Of a stretch of 61,939 nucleotides of DNA, positions 34,852-53,404 are shown one piece after another. The stretch lies in the NCBI GenBank assembly GCA_947626075.1, contig CANQQW010000003.1, positions 1 to 61,939 on the forward strand. Direction: 5' to 3'. Positions within the stretch are counted from its first letter, which is position 1. Each line of letters begins with the position of its first letter. The notes beneath the pieces were generated by a model. That model made no database searches, was not told where the DNA came from, and saw only the letters and a list, made by a program, of their open reading frames with translations. Made by a program: the position numbers and the translations under genes. This DNA is from an uncultured Clostridia bacterium (GTDB taxonomy: Bacteria; Bacillota; Clostridia; UBA1381).

Positions 34852-34894
34852 AAAAAATAAATTTTCCCAAGGAAACGGAGAAAATTTATTTTTT
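34852..34894 (-). terminator. rnpB terminator
   Basis: Left arm AAAAAATAAATTTTC (34852-34866) pairs with GAAAATTTATTTTTT (34880-34894), a 15-bp stem with a 13-base loop and a T-run on the minus strand, immediately after RNase P RNA. Confidence 0.85.
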
Positions 34895-34896
34895 GT

Positions 34897-35223
34897 AGGA
34901 GCAAATCTATAAGCCGGGTTCTGTATTTGACGATTATCTATCTTGACGCAAAGTTACCAATGCGTTCCAGCCTTTTGAGGGAACACGCCGAGCAAGCTTA
35001 ACGTTCCCAAAGTTGCTTCAGGTGGGGTTTACACGGAAATTCAGTTACCATCTTTCCTGTGCGCTCTTACCGCACATTTCCACAATCGCCGCGTTAAAAA
35101 ACGGGCATTTATTTTCTGTTGCACTATTCCTTGAAGTTGCCTTCACCGGCCGTTAGCCGGCACCCTGCTCTGTGAAGCCCGGACTTTCCTCACCGTAATG
35201 GCGCAATCGTCTGACTTACTCCT
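34897..35223 (-). ncRNA. rnpB: RNase P RNA (M1-type RNA)
   Basis: Catalytic RNA that removes tRNA 5' leaders. Hallmarks on the minus strand: GAGGAAAGTCCGGGCT (P4/CR-I region) near the 5' end, AGAGCAGGGTGCCGG, and ACAGAACCCGGCTTATAG near the 3' end. AGGAG at the 5' end (35223) starts an 11-bp P1 helix with GATTTGCTCCT ending at 34897, which fixes both ends. About 327 nt. Confidence 0.96.
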
Positions 35224-49855: not shown

Positions 49856-50614
49856 ATGATAAGGATAATCATGAACGGCTGTAACGGTAAGATGGGTCAG
49901 GTCATTACGCGTCTCGCGGGCGCGGACGAAGAGTGTGAAATCGTCGCGGGTTTTGACGTGAATGACGCAGTTGAAAATACGTATCCCGTTTTTGCGAATC
50001 CTGATGAGTTTACGGGCGAGGCTGATGTTGTGATTGACTTTTCGCATCCGTCGGCGCTTACGGGTATATTAAGTTATTGTAAAAAGCGCCGTCTGCCGAT
50101 AATTCTTGCCACAACGGGTTTTACGGCGGAGCAAAAAGAGGAGTTTCAAAGCGCGTCGAACGAGATACCTGTATTTTTCTCAGCGAATATGAGTTTGGGA
50201 ATAAATCTGCTTATAGCGCTCGCGAAAAAGGCGACGAAGCTTTTGGAGGGTAATTTTGATATAGAGATTGTCGAAAAGCATCATAATCAAAAAATTGACG
50301 CGCCCTCGGGAACGGCGCTGGCGATTGCGGACGCAATCGATGAAACGCTGTCTTTCCCCGCCGAGTATGTGTATGACCGTCACGCGGTGCGCAGAAAGAG
50401 GAAGAAAACGGAGATTGGTCTGCACGCGGTACGCGGCGGTACGATCGTCGGCGAGCATGATATTATCTTTGCCGGTAACGACGAGGTTATAACGCTGAGT
50501 CACCACGCTGCGTCAAAAGAGGTGTTTGCGGTAGGCGCTATTAAGGCGGCGAAGTTTATTGCCGACAAGCCCGCCGGTATGTATAATATGAACGATATTA
50601 TAAGTAATTTGTAA
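49856..50614 (+). CDS. dapB: 4-hydroxy-tetrahydrodipicolinate reductase
   Basis: A 252-residue NAD(P)H-dependent reductase of the diaminopimelate route. The N-terminal NGCNGKMGQVITR is the cofactor motif. The active-site block IVEKHHNQKIDAPSGTA contains the catalytic His and Lys. The C-terminal GIRP-like end is short but complete. GGAGAGG precedes the ATG. It is the last gene of the operon. Confidence 0.97.
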   Translation: MIRIIMNGCNGKMGQVITRLAGADEECEIVAGFDVNDAVENTYPVFANPDEFTGEADVVIDFSHPSALTGILSYCKKRRLPIILATTGFTAEQKEEFQSASNEIPVFFSANMSLGINLLIALAKKATKLLEGNFDIEIVEKHHNQKIDAPSGTALAIADAIDETLSFPAEYVYDRHAVRRKRKKTEIGLHAVRGGTIVGEHDIIFAGNDEVITLSHHAASKEVFAVGAIKAAKFIADKPAGMYNMNDIISNL

Positions 50615-50622
50615 AAATAAAG

Positions 50623-50658
50623 TCCCTTTAAGGCGAGTTTGCTTTAAAGGGATTTTTT
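50623..50658 (+). terminator. Terminator after dapB
   Basis: TCCCTTTAA (50623-50631) pairs with TTAAAGGGA (50644-50652), followed by TTTTTT. Confidence 0.9.
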
Positions 50659-50676
50659 AATTTTGTAAAATTTGTA

Positions 50677-50704
50677 TTGAAAATCAGGCAAAATGTGGTA
50701 TAAT
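50677..50704 (+). promoter_or_regulatory. Promoter of the 50.7 kb structured RNA
   Basis: TTGAAA (50677-50682), a 16-base spacer and TATAAT (50699-50704). The expected start near 50711 coincides with the first base of a long closing stem. Confidence 0.65.
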
Positions 50705-50710
50705 AAATGT

Positions 50711-50980
50711 ACCACATTATTTATATATCATTATGTGTAATCATATGATACTGTTTTTTTAATACGTTTTTTCAGAATATTCCCGTTTGGGTATATTCTG
50801 ATTTGCATACACTGTATAAAGGATTGTGTTTTGTTTAAAACGCAGGCTTTATATATGGAAAATCCTTTATGCAGAAAATCAGTATAGGCAGTATTTCATA
50901 TTGTGATATATAAATGTGTGGTAACATTAAATCTGAGCCGCGTTTTATGCGTGGTACAGGTTTGTGCCGCGCATTTTTTG
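50711..50980 (+). ncRNA. Candidate structured non-coding RNA (~215 nt plus terminator)
   Basis: No convincing reading frame. ACCACATTATTTATATATCA (50711-50730) pairs almost completely with TGATATATAAATGTGTGGT (50904-50922), closing the molecule. Next to it CATATGATACTG (50742-50753) pairs with CAGTATTTCATATTG (50889-50903). Inside are a 12-bp hairpin, CAGAATATTCCC/GGGTATATTCTG (50773-50800, one mismatch), and a stem TGCAT + AAAGGATT / AATCCTTT + ATGCA (50804-50873). An inner GTGTTTT/AAAACGC hairpin completes it. A 12-bp terminator ends the unit. I do not recognise a known RNA family. Confidence 0.6.
50947..50980 (+). terminator. Terminator of the 50.7 kb RNA
   Basis: ATGCGTGGTACA (50947-50958) pairs over all 12 positions (two G-T) with TGTGCCGCGCAT (50963-50974), loop GGTT, followed by a T-run. 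Confidence 0.88.
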
Positions 50981-51053
50981 TTGGGGCAGTTTCGTGAGCG
51001 AAGCGAGCAGTCAGCTGCGACGTGTGCAGAAAAACGGCACACAGTTTCCCGAG

Positions 51054-51215
51054 GGGAGGCTAACGGGCGACCGTGAAGGTCGCCCCTACGAGGGCGTGAT
51101 GGCGGGCGGCCAATGACCGCCCCTACGAGGGCGTGATGGCGGGCGGCCAATGACCGCCCCTACGGTGGACGGGCTGTCGAGGGCGCCAGCCCCTACGGTG
51201 GGCGGGCTGTCGAGG
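51054..51215. repeat. 162-bp direct repeat, copy 1, of five palindromic units
   Basis: Contains unit A (51064-51090), B (51103-51127), B (51140-51164), C (51170-51197) and the start of another C (51203-51215). All are in the orientation CGGG...CCCCTACG. Units A-B-B are separated by AGGGCGTGATGG spacers. Identical to 51367-51528, offset 313 bases. Confidence 0.92.
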
Positions 51216-51366
51216 TGAACAACATGCGGAGCGTGTTGTAGGCGTGTTGCGTAGCAACAAACGCCGTAGCAAAGGGGGCTGTCAGCGGAGCTGACTGGGG
51301 GATTCCTTTTTTGATTTTTAGAGTGAATCCCTCCACCACCTTTGGTGGTCCCCCTCCTTTTAACAA
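51216..51366. repeat. Mixed repeat fragments between the two direct copies
   Basis: Includes AGGCGTGTTGCGTAGCAACAAACGCC (51240-51265, inverted repeats TTGC/GCAA). AGGGGGCTGTC...GACTGGGGGATT follows (51276-51305). AATCCCTCCACCACC with TGGTGGTCCCCCTCC follows (51327-51357), then AACAAGGGAGG. These resemble fragments of longer interspersed elements; no gene is present. Confidence 0.7.
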
Positions 51367-51543
51367 GGGAGGCTAACGGGCGACCGTGAAGGTCGCCCCT
51401 ACGAGGGCGTGATGGCGGGCGGCCAATGACCGCCCCTACGAGGGCGTGATGGCGGGCGGCCAATGACCGCCCCTACGGTGGACGGGCTGTCGAGGGCGCC
51501 AGCCCCTACGGTGGGCGGGCTGTCGAGGGCGCCAGCCCCTACG
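51367..51543. repeat. Direct repeat copy 2 plus a complete extra C unit
   Basis: Units A (51377-51403), B (51416-51440), B (51453-51477), C (51483-51510) and a complete second C (51516-51543). The cluster ends about 60 bases before the RBS of the leucine-rich-repeat gene. Confidence 0.92.
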
Positions 51544-51601
51544 AGGGCGGGGTGTCCGCAAAGGTTACATTCATATTAAATAATTTTACGGAGGTAAAAA
51601 G

Positions 51602-53404
51602 ATGAAAAGAAAGATTTTAATTTTACTCGCGGTTTTAACCGTTATGTTCGCCGTGCCTGTTATCGCAAACGCGGCAAGCGTGGATGATTTGACATTTGAC
51701 GCGGCAACGGGAACGATTACATACTGCAATAGAGATGCTAAAGGAGAGCTTGTTATTCCCGAAGAAATGGATGGGGTGAGCGTGACAGGTATCGATCGGA
51801 GTGCATTTGCGGGCTGCAGCGGCTTAACGAGCATAAGCATACCGAACAGCGTGACAAGCATAGACTCAGATGCGTTTTGGTCTTGCACCGGCTTGACGAG
51901 TGTAAATATACCCGAAAGCATAACAAGCATAGCTTATGAGATGTTTTATAAATGCAGCAACTTGACAAGTATCACTATACCCGAAAACGTGACAAATATC
52001 GGCAGTTATGCCTTTTCAGGTTGTTATGGCTTAACAAGTGTAAATTTGCCCGACAATTTAATAAACATCGGCGATAGTGCGTTTGAATCTTGTAAAAATT
52101 TAACGGGCATAGAGATACCTGAAAATGTTACAAGCATAGGCAAGTACGCATTTTGCTCTTGCGCCGCCTTGACAAGCATAAATATACCCGACAGTGTTAC
52201 AAGCATCGGCGATAGTGCATTTGATTCTTGCAGTGGGATAACAGACATAAATGTTAATCCCCAAAATAATTATTATTGTTCAGTAAACGGAAATTTATTT
52301 GATAAAGATAAAAAAACCTTAATACTGTACGCAATTGGTAAAAATGATTCTAATTATACCATACCCAACAGTGTGACAAGCATCGGTAATCATGCATTCG
52401 AGGATTGTAAAAGTTTAAAAAGCATAGAGATACCCGACAGTGTGACAAGTATCGGCGATTATGTATTTGAGGATTGCACCGGTTTAAAAAGCATGAAAAT
52501 CCCTGAAAGCGTGATAAAACTTGGTGCTTCCGCGTTTTCAGGTTGTATGAATTTGAGAGAGATAAATATACCCACCGGCATAACAAGCATATCTGATTTT
52601 TTGTTTAAAAATTGTTATTCTTTAACAAGCATAAATATACCCGATAATATAACACTCATATCTAACTGGGCGTTTGAGGGTTGTTATCATTTAACGAACA
52701 TAAATATACCCGTCAGCGTAACGTACATTGGCCGTGGAACTTTTGAAAATTGCACAGGTCTAACGAACATAACAATCTCCGACAACGTAACGCACATTGG
52801 TCCATATGCGTTTGATAGTACGGGTTATTACAATAATAGGGATAACTGGTATAATGATGTTTTATATATAGGTCATTATTTAATTAAAGCGAGAAATAAC
52901 ACAAATAGTAACTGCGCAATAAACGATGGGACAAAAGTCATCGCATGTAATGCATTTGATGGTTGTTCCAACTTAAAGAGCGTAAGTATACCTGACAGTG
53001 TGACAAGCATCAACTCAGATTCTTTTTATGGCTGTAACGCCTTGACAGATATATACTATGACGGTAGCGAAGCAGATTGGGGAAATATTGATATAGAAGC
53101 ATCAAATTACAGACTTTTCAACGCCACTATTCATTACGGAAAATACGATCCAATCACTCCCGCCGCGCTAACCGTCATGCCGTCGGGCAGCGGATACGTG
53201 CTTACAGCCGATACGGAATACGACGGCGCTGCGTATGCGGCATCGTATGACGCGGAGGGCGCGCTAATAAACGTCGTGAGCAAACCGTTTACCGGCAATG
53301 CGGCGACCGTAACGCCCGACACGGCGGGCGCGGCGAAAATAAAATTCTTCGTATGGACGAATAATATTCAGCCGGTGACAAACGTGGAAGTAATGGATCT
53401 GTAG
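51602..53404 (+). CDS. Secreted BspA-like leucine-rich-repeat protein
   Basis: 600 residues. The signal peptide (KRKILILLAVLTVMFAVPVIANA) is followed by about 15 LRR_5 (Treponema/BspA-type) repeats of ~23 residues, built on SVTSIGDSAFDSCSGLTSI-like units at roughly 60-500. A C-terminal beta domain of ~85 residues ends in TNVEVMDL. BspA-like proteins bind host or other bacterial surfaces; the ligand is unknown. No sortase motif or membrane anchor is seen, so it is released or held non-covalently. ACGGAGG precedes the ATG. It is monocistronic. Confidence 0.9.
   Translation: MKRKILILLAVLTVMFAVPVIANAASVDDLTFDAATGTITYCNRDAKGELVIPEEMDGVSVTGIDRSAFAGCSGLTSISIPNSVTSIDSDAFWSCTGLTSVNIPESITSIAYEMFYKCSNLTSITIPENVTNIGSYAFSGCYGLTSVNLPDNLINIGDSAFESCKNLTGIEIPENVTSIGKYAFCSCAALTSINIPDSVTSIGDSAFDSCSGITDINVNPQNNYYCSVNGNLFDKDKKTLILYAIGKNDSNYTIPNSVTSIGNHAFEDCKSLKSIEIPDSVTSIGDYVFEDCTGLKSMKIPESVIKLGASAFSGCMNLREINIPTGITSISDFLFKNCYSLTSINIPDNITLISNWAFEGCYHLTNINIPVSVTYIGRGTFENCTGLTNITISDNVTHIGPYAFDSTGYYNNRDNWYNDVLYIGHYLIKARNNTNSNCAINDGTKVIACNAFDGCSNLKSVSIPDSVTSINSDSFYGCNALTDIYYDGSEADWGNIDIEASNYRLFNATIHYGKYDPITPAALTVMPSGSGYVLTADTEYDGAAYAASYDAEGALINVVSKPFTGNAATVTPDTAGAAKIKFFVWTNNIQPVTNVEVMDL

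Follow-up and report, generated by a model that had tools for sequence, protein, structure and literature searches.

The stretch of DNA analyzed here (the window; 61,939 nucleotides of an uncultured Clostridia bacterium, contig CANQQW010000003.1) holds, between the dapB terminator and a cluster of repeats, a transcription unit (50677 to 50979, forward strand) that had been predicted to encode a free-standing structured RNA, possibly 6S RNA or a new class. What kind of RNA is this, and does it act on its own or on a neighboring gene? Comparison with related sequences indicates that the window copy is very probably the transcription-attenuating leader of the leucine-rich repeat (LRR) gene that starts at 51602, and a member of a multicopy family of Clostridia; its free-standing nature most likely does not hold. 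That the family is also a new riboswitch class with a secretome-wide regulon, in which up to about twenty leaders per genome respond to one signal, we put at even chances.

Table 1. Features of the window copy and of the gene that it is proposed to regulate (window positions).
Feature	Positions	Strand	Remarks
Promoter TTGAAA-16-TATAAT	50677..50704	+	TTGAAA 50677-50682, TATAAT 50699-50704, 16-nt spacer
P1 closing stem, 5' strand (a) with extension	50711..50731	+	minimum-energy fold (50711-50717 with 50916-50922; 50719-50731 with 50903-50915); P1 pairing tests
Further stem	50747..50756 with 50886..50895	+	minimum-energy fold
Internal hairpin around AGAATATTC	50772..50801	+	in most copies near the window's; absent from the shortest copies
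Long internal hairpin	50812..50874	+	switching segment in its apical part; predicted folds, alignment
P3, local hairpin	50825..50832 with 50837..50844	+
Switching segment h2 (AAAACGCAGGCTT)	50837..50849	+	forms either the local hairpin P3 or the long-range P6 (with 50935-50946)
P1 closing stem, 3' strand (b) with extension	50903..50922	+	minimum-energy fold; P1 pairing tests
P7, small hairpin AATGT-GTGGTA-ACATT	50913..50928	+	rival of P1 for strand b
Antiterminator hairpin (AT)	50930..50962	+	50930-50935 with 50957-50962, 50937-50943 with 50949-50955; predicted -16.0 kcal/mol on its own
P6, 3' strand	50935..50946	+	overlaps the 5' strand of the antiterminator
Intrinsic terminator (T) with T-run	50947..50979	+	12-bp stem, 50947-50958 with 50963-50974
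Proposed regulated gene	51602..53404	+	600 aa, signal-peptide-like N terminus, BspA-type leucine-rich repeats

The original prediction of a structured RNA that has a promoter and a terminator to itself was borne out, and the RNA is conserved: the fold beats shuffled sequences, and the stems are kept in other copies. The promoter was located, and the closing stem, the further stem, two internal hairpins, and the terminator with its T-run were all present in the minimum-energy fold (Table 1). The closed fold spans 50711 to 50922, and the T-run ends at 50979. Folded as 275 nt, the copy reached -91.7 kcal/mol, against -56.9 ± 4.3 kcal/mol for shuffles (z, -8.06; 0/200), and the core without the terminator gave a z of -7.27 (0/200). 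The expected position of the stem near the first transcribed base recurs in the family: 91 of 124 copies tested keep at least 7 of 8 P1 pairs, and in 79 of these 91 the -10 box and the start of P1 have the same 6-nt distance as in the window copy.

A scan of the window with Rfam 15 gave no match at the window copy at gathering scores; elsewhere, it found RNase P RNA (34894 to 35222, reverse strand), a lysine riboswitch (RF00168; 47593 to 47767, forward strand, upstream of the dap genes), and a tRNA. Both a lysine riboswitch and RNase P RNA were rejected as the identity of the window copy, in line with what had been predicted, because their covariance matches lie elsewhere in the window. At an E value of ≤10, positions 50600 to 51050 returned nothing convincing, only 22 low-scoring names, all below gathering scores (SpF39, PyrR, a yeast snoRNA, and others), many of them on the dapB terminator and taken as chance. 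Rfam scans of the window and 40 fetched loci placed lysine and THF riboswitches at other positions and gave no family match at the copies themselves, which agrees with the suggestion of a new class. The c-di-GMP-I riboswitch (RF01051) was matched at none of the copies when the window and fetched loci were scanned, nor in the window's own genome, though control genomes also gave no match.

Copies of the RNA were sought with blastn (309-nt query), which returned 8 matches in the own genome and matched 18 of 61 genomes (own included), and with R1, a covariance model built on the conserved 3' module (76 positions, 71 sequences; 71 of 72 references went into its alignment A2, and 49 of 53 copies went into an earlier alignment). 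R1 found 16 matches in the own genome and up to 21 per genome in the family search. Genomes with R1 matches numbered 49 of 70 in the family (own included), 62 of 95 in the order (own genome and family members included), and 60 of 341 in a sample of the class (own included; 49 of the 60 outside the family). A sample of the phylum gave 2 of 398, namely, the own genome and one whose only match is weak (32.1 bits). Named genomes were also scanned for an exact pattern, which returned 59 stretches, all labelled Clostridia or groups within it (57 from metagenome bins, 2 from Lachnospiraceae bacterium MD329); the same scan of viral contigs found no stretch. From the family, order, and class matches listed, 100 regions were picked for spread.

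The copies differ in size. Among those near the window's, the 5' and 3' strands of P1 lie 95 to 243 nt apart (67 of 73 copies, those in which the 5' strand was found); larger copies have an additional hairpin as well as a second internal stem, and the shortest are without both. A short divergent set comprised 47 copies of ≤190 nt with at least 7 of 8 P1 pairs, of which 39 were aligned, with the consensus GCNACATA...TTAATA...GTTTGCGTTT-loop-AAAAAACGTANGCTTTG...TCATACC...TGTGTNGCAGCA...AAATCAAAGCTGCGTTTTT...TGCGTGGCTTTG...GCNGCGCATTTTTT. Some units stand in tandem, three at contig C59 of the own genome (G000:C59) and two each at G000:C7 and at loci L212, L214, L215, L216, L224, L254, and L285; L212 has a third weak match beside its two units.

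Pairing tests started from 185 gathered copies; 2 without an early T-run were dropped, and filtering the remaining 183 for module identity below 85% left 124. Each copy's own partner strand was compared with partners from other copies (2,000 permutations). The resulting z values, which are not probabilities because the copies are related, were 15.9 for P1 (0/2,000; 124 copies), 15.4 for AT (0/2,000; 124 copies), 14.8 for P6 (0/2,000; 123 copies), 22.3 for the terminator T, 13.1 for P7 in register (4.4 or less when slid), and 11.8 for the local hairpin P3 (71 divergent copies). For the same reason of relatedness, the swap was repeated among the five most similar copies only (n = 123). The own partner was better in 74 copies, worse in 12, and tied in 37 for P1; the corresponding counts were 71, 35, and 17 for P7, 91, 30, and 2 for P6, 89, 32, and 2 for AT (P = 2.2e-8), and 99, 23, and 1 for T, with P values from 8.6e-7 to 2.2e-13 across the five helices.

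The helices fall into two sets, whose structures were written out from a single aligned copy (L287). Across the 39 short copies, set one (P1, P3, and AT) was paired in 89.8% of cells (29 to 53% for slid versions), with changes on both sides at 23 of 28 pairs, and set two (P6, P7, and T) was paired in 89.9% (35 to 54% when slid), with double changes at 16 of 27 pairs. P6 in these copies joins h2 to the 5' strand of AT and the following U-run, with one bulge; its column 88/169 pairs in only 20 of the 39. The 98.2% pairing of P1 is biased upward because the copies were chosen for at least 7 of 8 P1 pairs. Two outer pairs, one in AT (43.6%) and one in P7 (9.7%), were unsupported. Among 85 distinct R1 matches, in an alignment fitted to that structure, P7 and T were paired in 96.7% of cells and held 201 double-changed cells against a shuffle mean of 43.

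The sequences indicate that P1, P7, P6, AT, and T are each kept by compensatory changes, and these changes support two mutually exclusive helix sets, P1 with P3 and AT versus P7 with P6 and T. The helices exclude each other because their strands are shared: P1 and P7 use strand b, P3 and P6 use h2, P6 and AT use the 5' strand of AT, and AT and T use the 5' strand of the terminator. Homologues that broke the stems had been named as evidence against the original prediction; the relatives preserve them by compensatory changes. AT, P6, P7, the other genomic copies, and the link to downstream genes were absent from that prediction.

Two further pairings were tried and left out of the model. P4, which would join UCAUAC of the apical loop to a GUAUGA that precedes strand b, had a z of 5.0 and a neighbor-swap P value of 0.0034, against 0.0004 for a control stretch that is itself not clean because it may hold a 5' extension of P1. 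In many of the 124 copies, the 3' strand of P1 resembles the 5' strand of the terminator, which prompted the idea that strand b pairs with the terminator 3' strand (d); this pairing had a z of 11.0, but its neighbor-swap P values were 0.4 (5 neighbors) and 0.012 (10 neighbors).

Genes downstream of the copies are mostly codirectional and mostly encode secreted-looking products. By crude open reading frame (ORF) calling, the nearest downstream ORF of the 124 nonredundant copies was on the same strand in 86 and on the opposite strand in 18, and none was found in 20. Of the 129 downstream ORFs that reach 120 aa, 105 had signal-peptide-like N termini, against 86 of 435 background ORFs from the same loci, an odds ratio of 17.8 by a crude test that may be inflated because the background ORFs are uncurated and both the signal-peptide test and the ORF calls are crude. 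At loci outside the family, such N termini were seen in 23 of 34 downstream ORFs (at least 60 aa). The own genome has its 16 matches on 13 contigs, and the picked downstream ORF was secreted-looking on 12 of these, 11 by script and one (L200) only with another start codon; no secreted-looking downstream gene was found on contig C59.

To describe the products, 186 matches were considered, of which 17 had no ORF; with repeated ORFs set aside, 154 were left. Pfam was run on 131 of these, and 23 were omitted because they were probably chance ORFs or were truncated, near-duplicates of others, or not next to a copy. Among the 25 of 58 Pfam families listed, LRR_5 occurred in 42 of the 131 proteins, the copper amine oxidase N-terminal domain in 9, CHAP in 7, a ricin-type lectin domain in 5, and SLH and DUF6273 in 4 each. 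HSP90, an EF-Tu-type (EF-G-like) GTPase, and SAICAR synthetase each occurred once in the 131; the two HSP90 loci, L269 and L272, are near-identical, and L272 was omitted from the scan. At the window copy, the product of 51602 to 53404 matched LRR_5 with an E value of 4.6e-95 over its first 380 aa.

Several other elements were seen near the copies. GGAAAGGAG directly follows the terminator in 16 of 185 copies (including L035, L037, L045, L051, L071, L201, and L202), and the sequence behind it is often rich in G+C and could form two hairpins that overlap (such as CGGCU..AGCCG and CCGCAA..UUGCGG, judged by eye); together they sit within 45 nt after the terminator, before the start codon, and are possibly a second regulatory element. 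Small helix-turn-helix-like proteins, similar by eye, are encoded near copies of two genomes, at L197 (2118 to 2444, reverse strand) and L226 (1246 to 1569, forward strand). At L211, some 0.8 kb downstream of the copy, RT-14 RNA (RF02921; 2423 to 2599, forward strand) was matched with 59.5 bits, the gathering score being 48.1.

These arrangements bear the marks of an attenuator: an intrinsic terminator lies between the promoter and a same-strand gene (in the window and in 86 of 124 copies), and a conserved antiterminator is exclusive with it. When the transcript of the window was grown in steps, AT entered the best predicted fold at about 50955 and was still part of it at 50975 and 50979, where strand b was paired to the terminator 3' strand; only at 50985 was P1 with the terminator the best predicted fold. 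The terminator region alone is predicted to fold at -22.6 kcal/mol. We infer two states. With P1, P3, and AT formed, RNA polymerase would read on into the gene; with P7, P6, and T formed, h2 would sequester the AT strand, the terminator would form, and an RNA of ~270 nt would result. The outcome would hinge on h2, which in its own hairpin would leave the AT strand free and in pairing with the AT strand would leave the terminator free. A common signal would set the balance at many loci, switching many secreted-protein genes together. This signal would most likely be a small molecule or ion, and the RNA would sense it, as a riboswitch does, through the h2 hairpin and its conserved neighbors.

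If the family is indeed a new riboswitch class, one signal (for example, an envelope or surface second messenger) would throw a nested three-part switch (P1 or P7, P3 or P6, AT or T), and gut Clostridia would turn their secreted LRR proteins, hydrolases, lectins, and lipoproteins on or off together. A leader family unmatched in Rfam 15 would offer a handle on surface remodelling in mostly uncultured gut bacteria, and the signal behind it would have an RNA sensor that matches no known family. Both folds are visible in covariation, and the mechanism is therefore testable at once with short synthetic leaders.

A protein or temperature is less likely as the signal. Control of the leader by an RNA-binding protein or by temperature would leave the leader mechanism the same and change the trigger alone; the paired A/U runs in P6 and the AU-rich stems could respond to temperature or be bound by a protein, and the downstream products hint at no ligand, but the conserved h2 and its 3' neighbor (AAAAAACGTANGCTTTG...TCATACC) resemble a sensing core, and we consider such a trigger possible rather than probable.

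An alternative that would do away with the leader itself is a free-standing multicopy small RNA (sRNA) gene, whose terminated ~270-nt RNA would act in trans and whose position before genes would be a by-product. The terminators and promoter-like sequences of the inspected copies would suit it, as would the tandem units, which are unusual for a leader, and the copies without an adjacent same-strand gene. The leader reading must also accommodate the 18 of 124 copies with an opposite-strand ORF and the 20 of 124 with none (crude calling), as well as the copies that precede genes for HSP90, the EF-G-like GTPase, and SAICAR synthetase. Against the sRNA stand the orientation bias (86 versus 18), the enriched class of downstream genes, and a start codon frequently close to the terminator: among 113 secreted-like downstream ORFs, the start lies ≤60 nt from the terminator in 47 and >130 nt from it in 39. 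A covarying antiterminator would, moreover, be needless in a plain sRNA. We judge the sRNA gene unlikely, and the RNA is most likely not free-standing, in view of the 86 of 124 same-strand ORFs, the enrichment in secreted products, and a terminator that forms one arm of a terminator/antiterminator switch.

The window copy itself weighs against a leader in one respect, a gap of 622 nt, filled by repeats, between its terminator and the LRR gene. A G+C-rich repeat cluster occupies 50985 to 51560, and similar stretches follow the terminator in L032 and L034. Positions 51564 to 51604 (GTTACATTCATATTAA...ACGGAGG...ATG) resemble the sequence directly after the terminator in L070 and L078, and the repeats were therefore probably inserted between the window terminator and its gene. 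The window copy was scored as having an opposite-strand ORF because of what we read as a probable chance ORF in the repeats. A mobile repeat of the MITE type, carrying promoter and terminator with it, would account for the repeats directly behind the window copy and for many copies per genome; it is very improbable, as the sequence has diverged between copies while pairing was kept and the copies show a strong bias in how they are oriented to the next gene.

Two known RNAs share surface features with the copies. GUGGUA...CCGCG bears what we take to be a surface likeness to a T-box motif, and 6S RNA has a long closed stem. The T-box (RF00230) gave no match at the window copy (E value, ≤10) or in 20 divergent loci (E value, ≤1), and its three matches in the own genome lie at G000:C23 and C89 (over the cut-off) and C17 (below the cut-off). 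UGGU in strand b was rejected as a reader of the tRNA 3' end because strand b varies together with P1, the GUGGU strand occurring as GUCGC, GUAGC, and GUGAC in step with its P1 partner. The only match of the genome to 6S RNA (RF00013) is at G000:C13:8407-8598 (68.9 bits), with none at the window copy, which disposes of the 6S option in the original prediction. A divergent T-box or 6S RNA, for which the motif likeness and the long closed stem might speak, is thus hardly credible, as the matches of the genome to both lie elsewhere, with none at the copies scanned, and the GUGGU strand varies along with its P1 partner.

The leader that we favor can be set beside known systems. Transcription-attenuating riboswitches have a sensing fold followed by a competing antiterminator and terminator before the gene. 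The lysine riboswitch is alike in this order of a folded sensing part and competing hairpins; in contrast, the RNA described here is without a covariance match to it and has many copies over secreted-protein genes. T-box leaders likewise have mutually exclusive antiterminators and terminators, as does the RNA here, whose T-box-like strand, however, pairs in P1 and varies, with no T-box match at the copies scanned. The likeness to 6S RNA lies in the long closed stem and similar size, whereas the only 6S match of the genome is elsewhere.

The passages of published work that were compared (from PMC8040213, PMC11109978, PMC2864571, and PMC6429828) contain no description of the family, and the searched terms are absent from PMC8632094. 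Possibly, the family is an unnamed entry in a large published candidate list. By gene context, the nearest published candidate in those passages, compared by description and not by sequence consensus, is the SLH motif, an orphan riboswitch candidate upstream of surface-protein genes with 80 unique examples in Clostridia among others (Stav et al. 2019, PMC6429828). Both are candidate cis-regulatory RNAs before surface-protein genes in Clostridia, but, as described there, about 60% of SLH motif examples precede SLH-domain genes, whereas the RNA here precedes SLH proteins in 4 of 131 cases and LRR_5 proteins in 42 of 131. By the descriptions compared, we class the RNA as a family that is new within a known kind, that of transcription-attenuating, riboswitch-like leaders.
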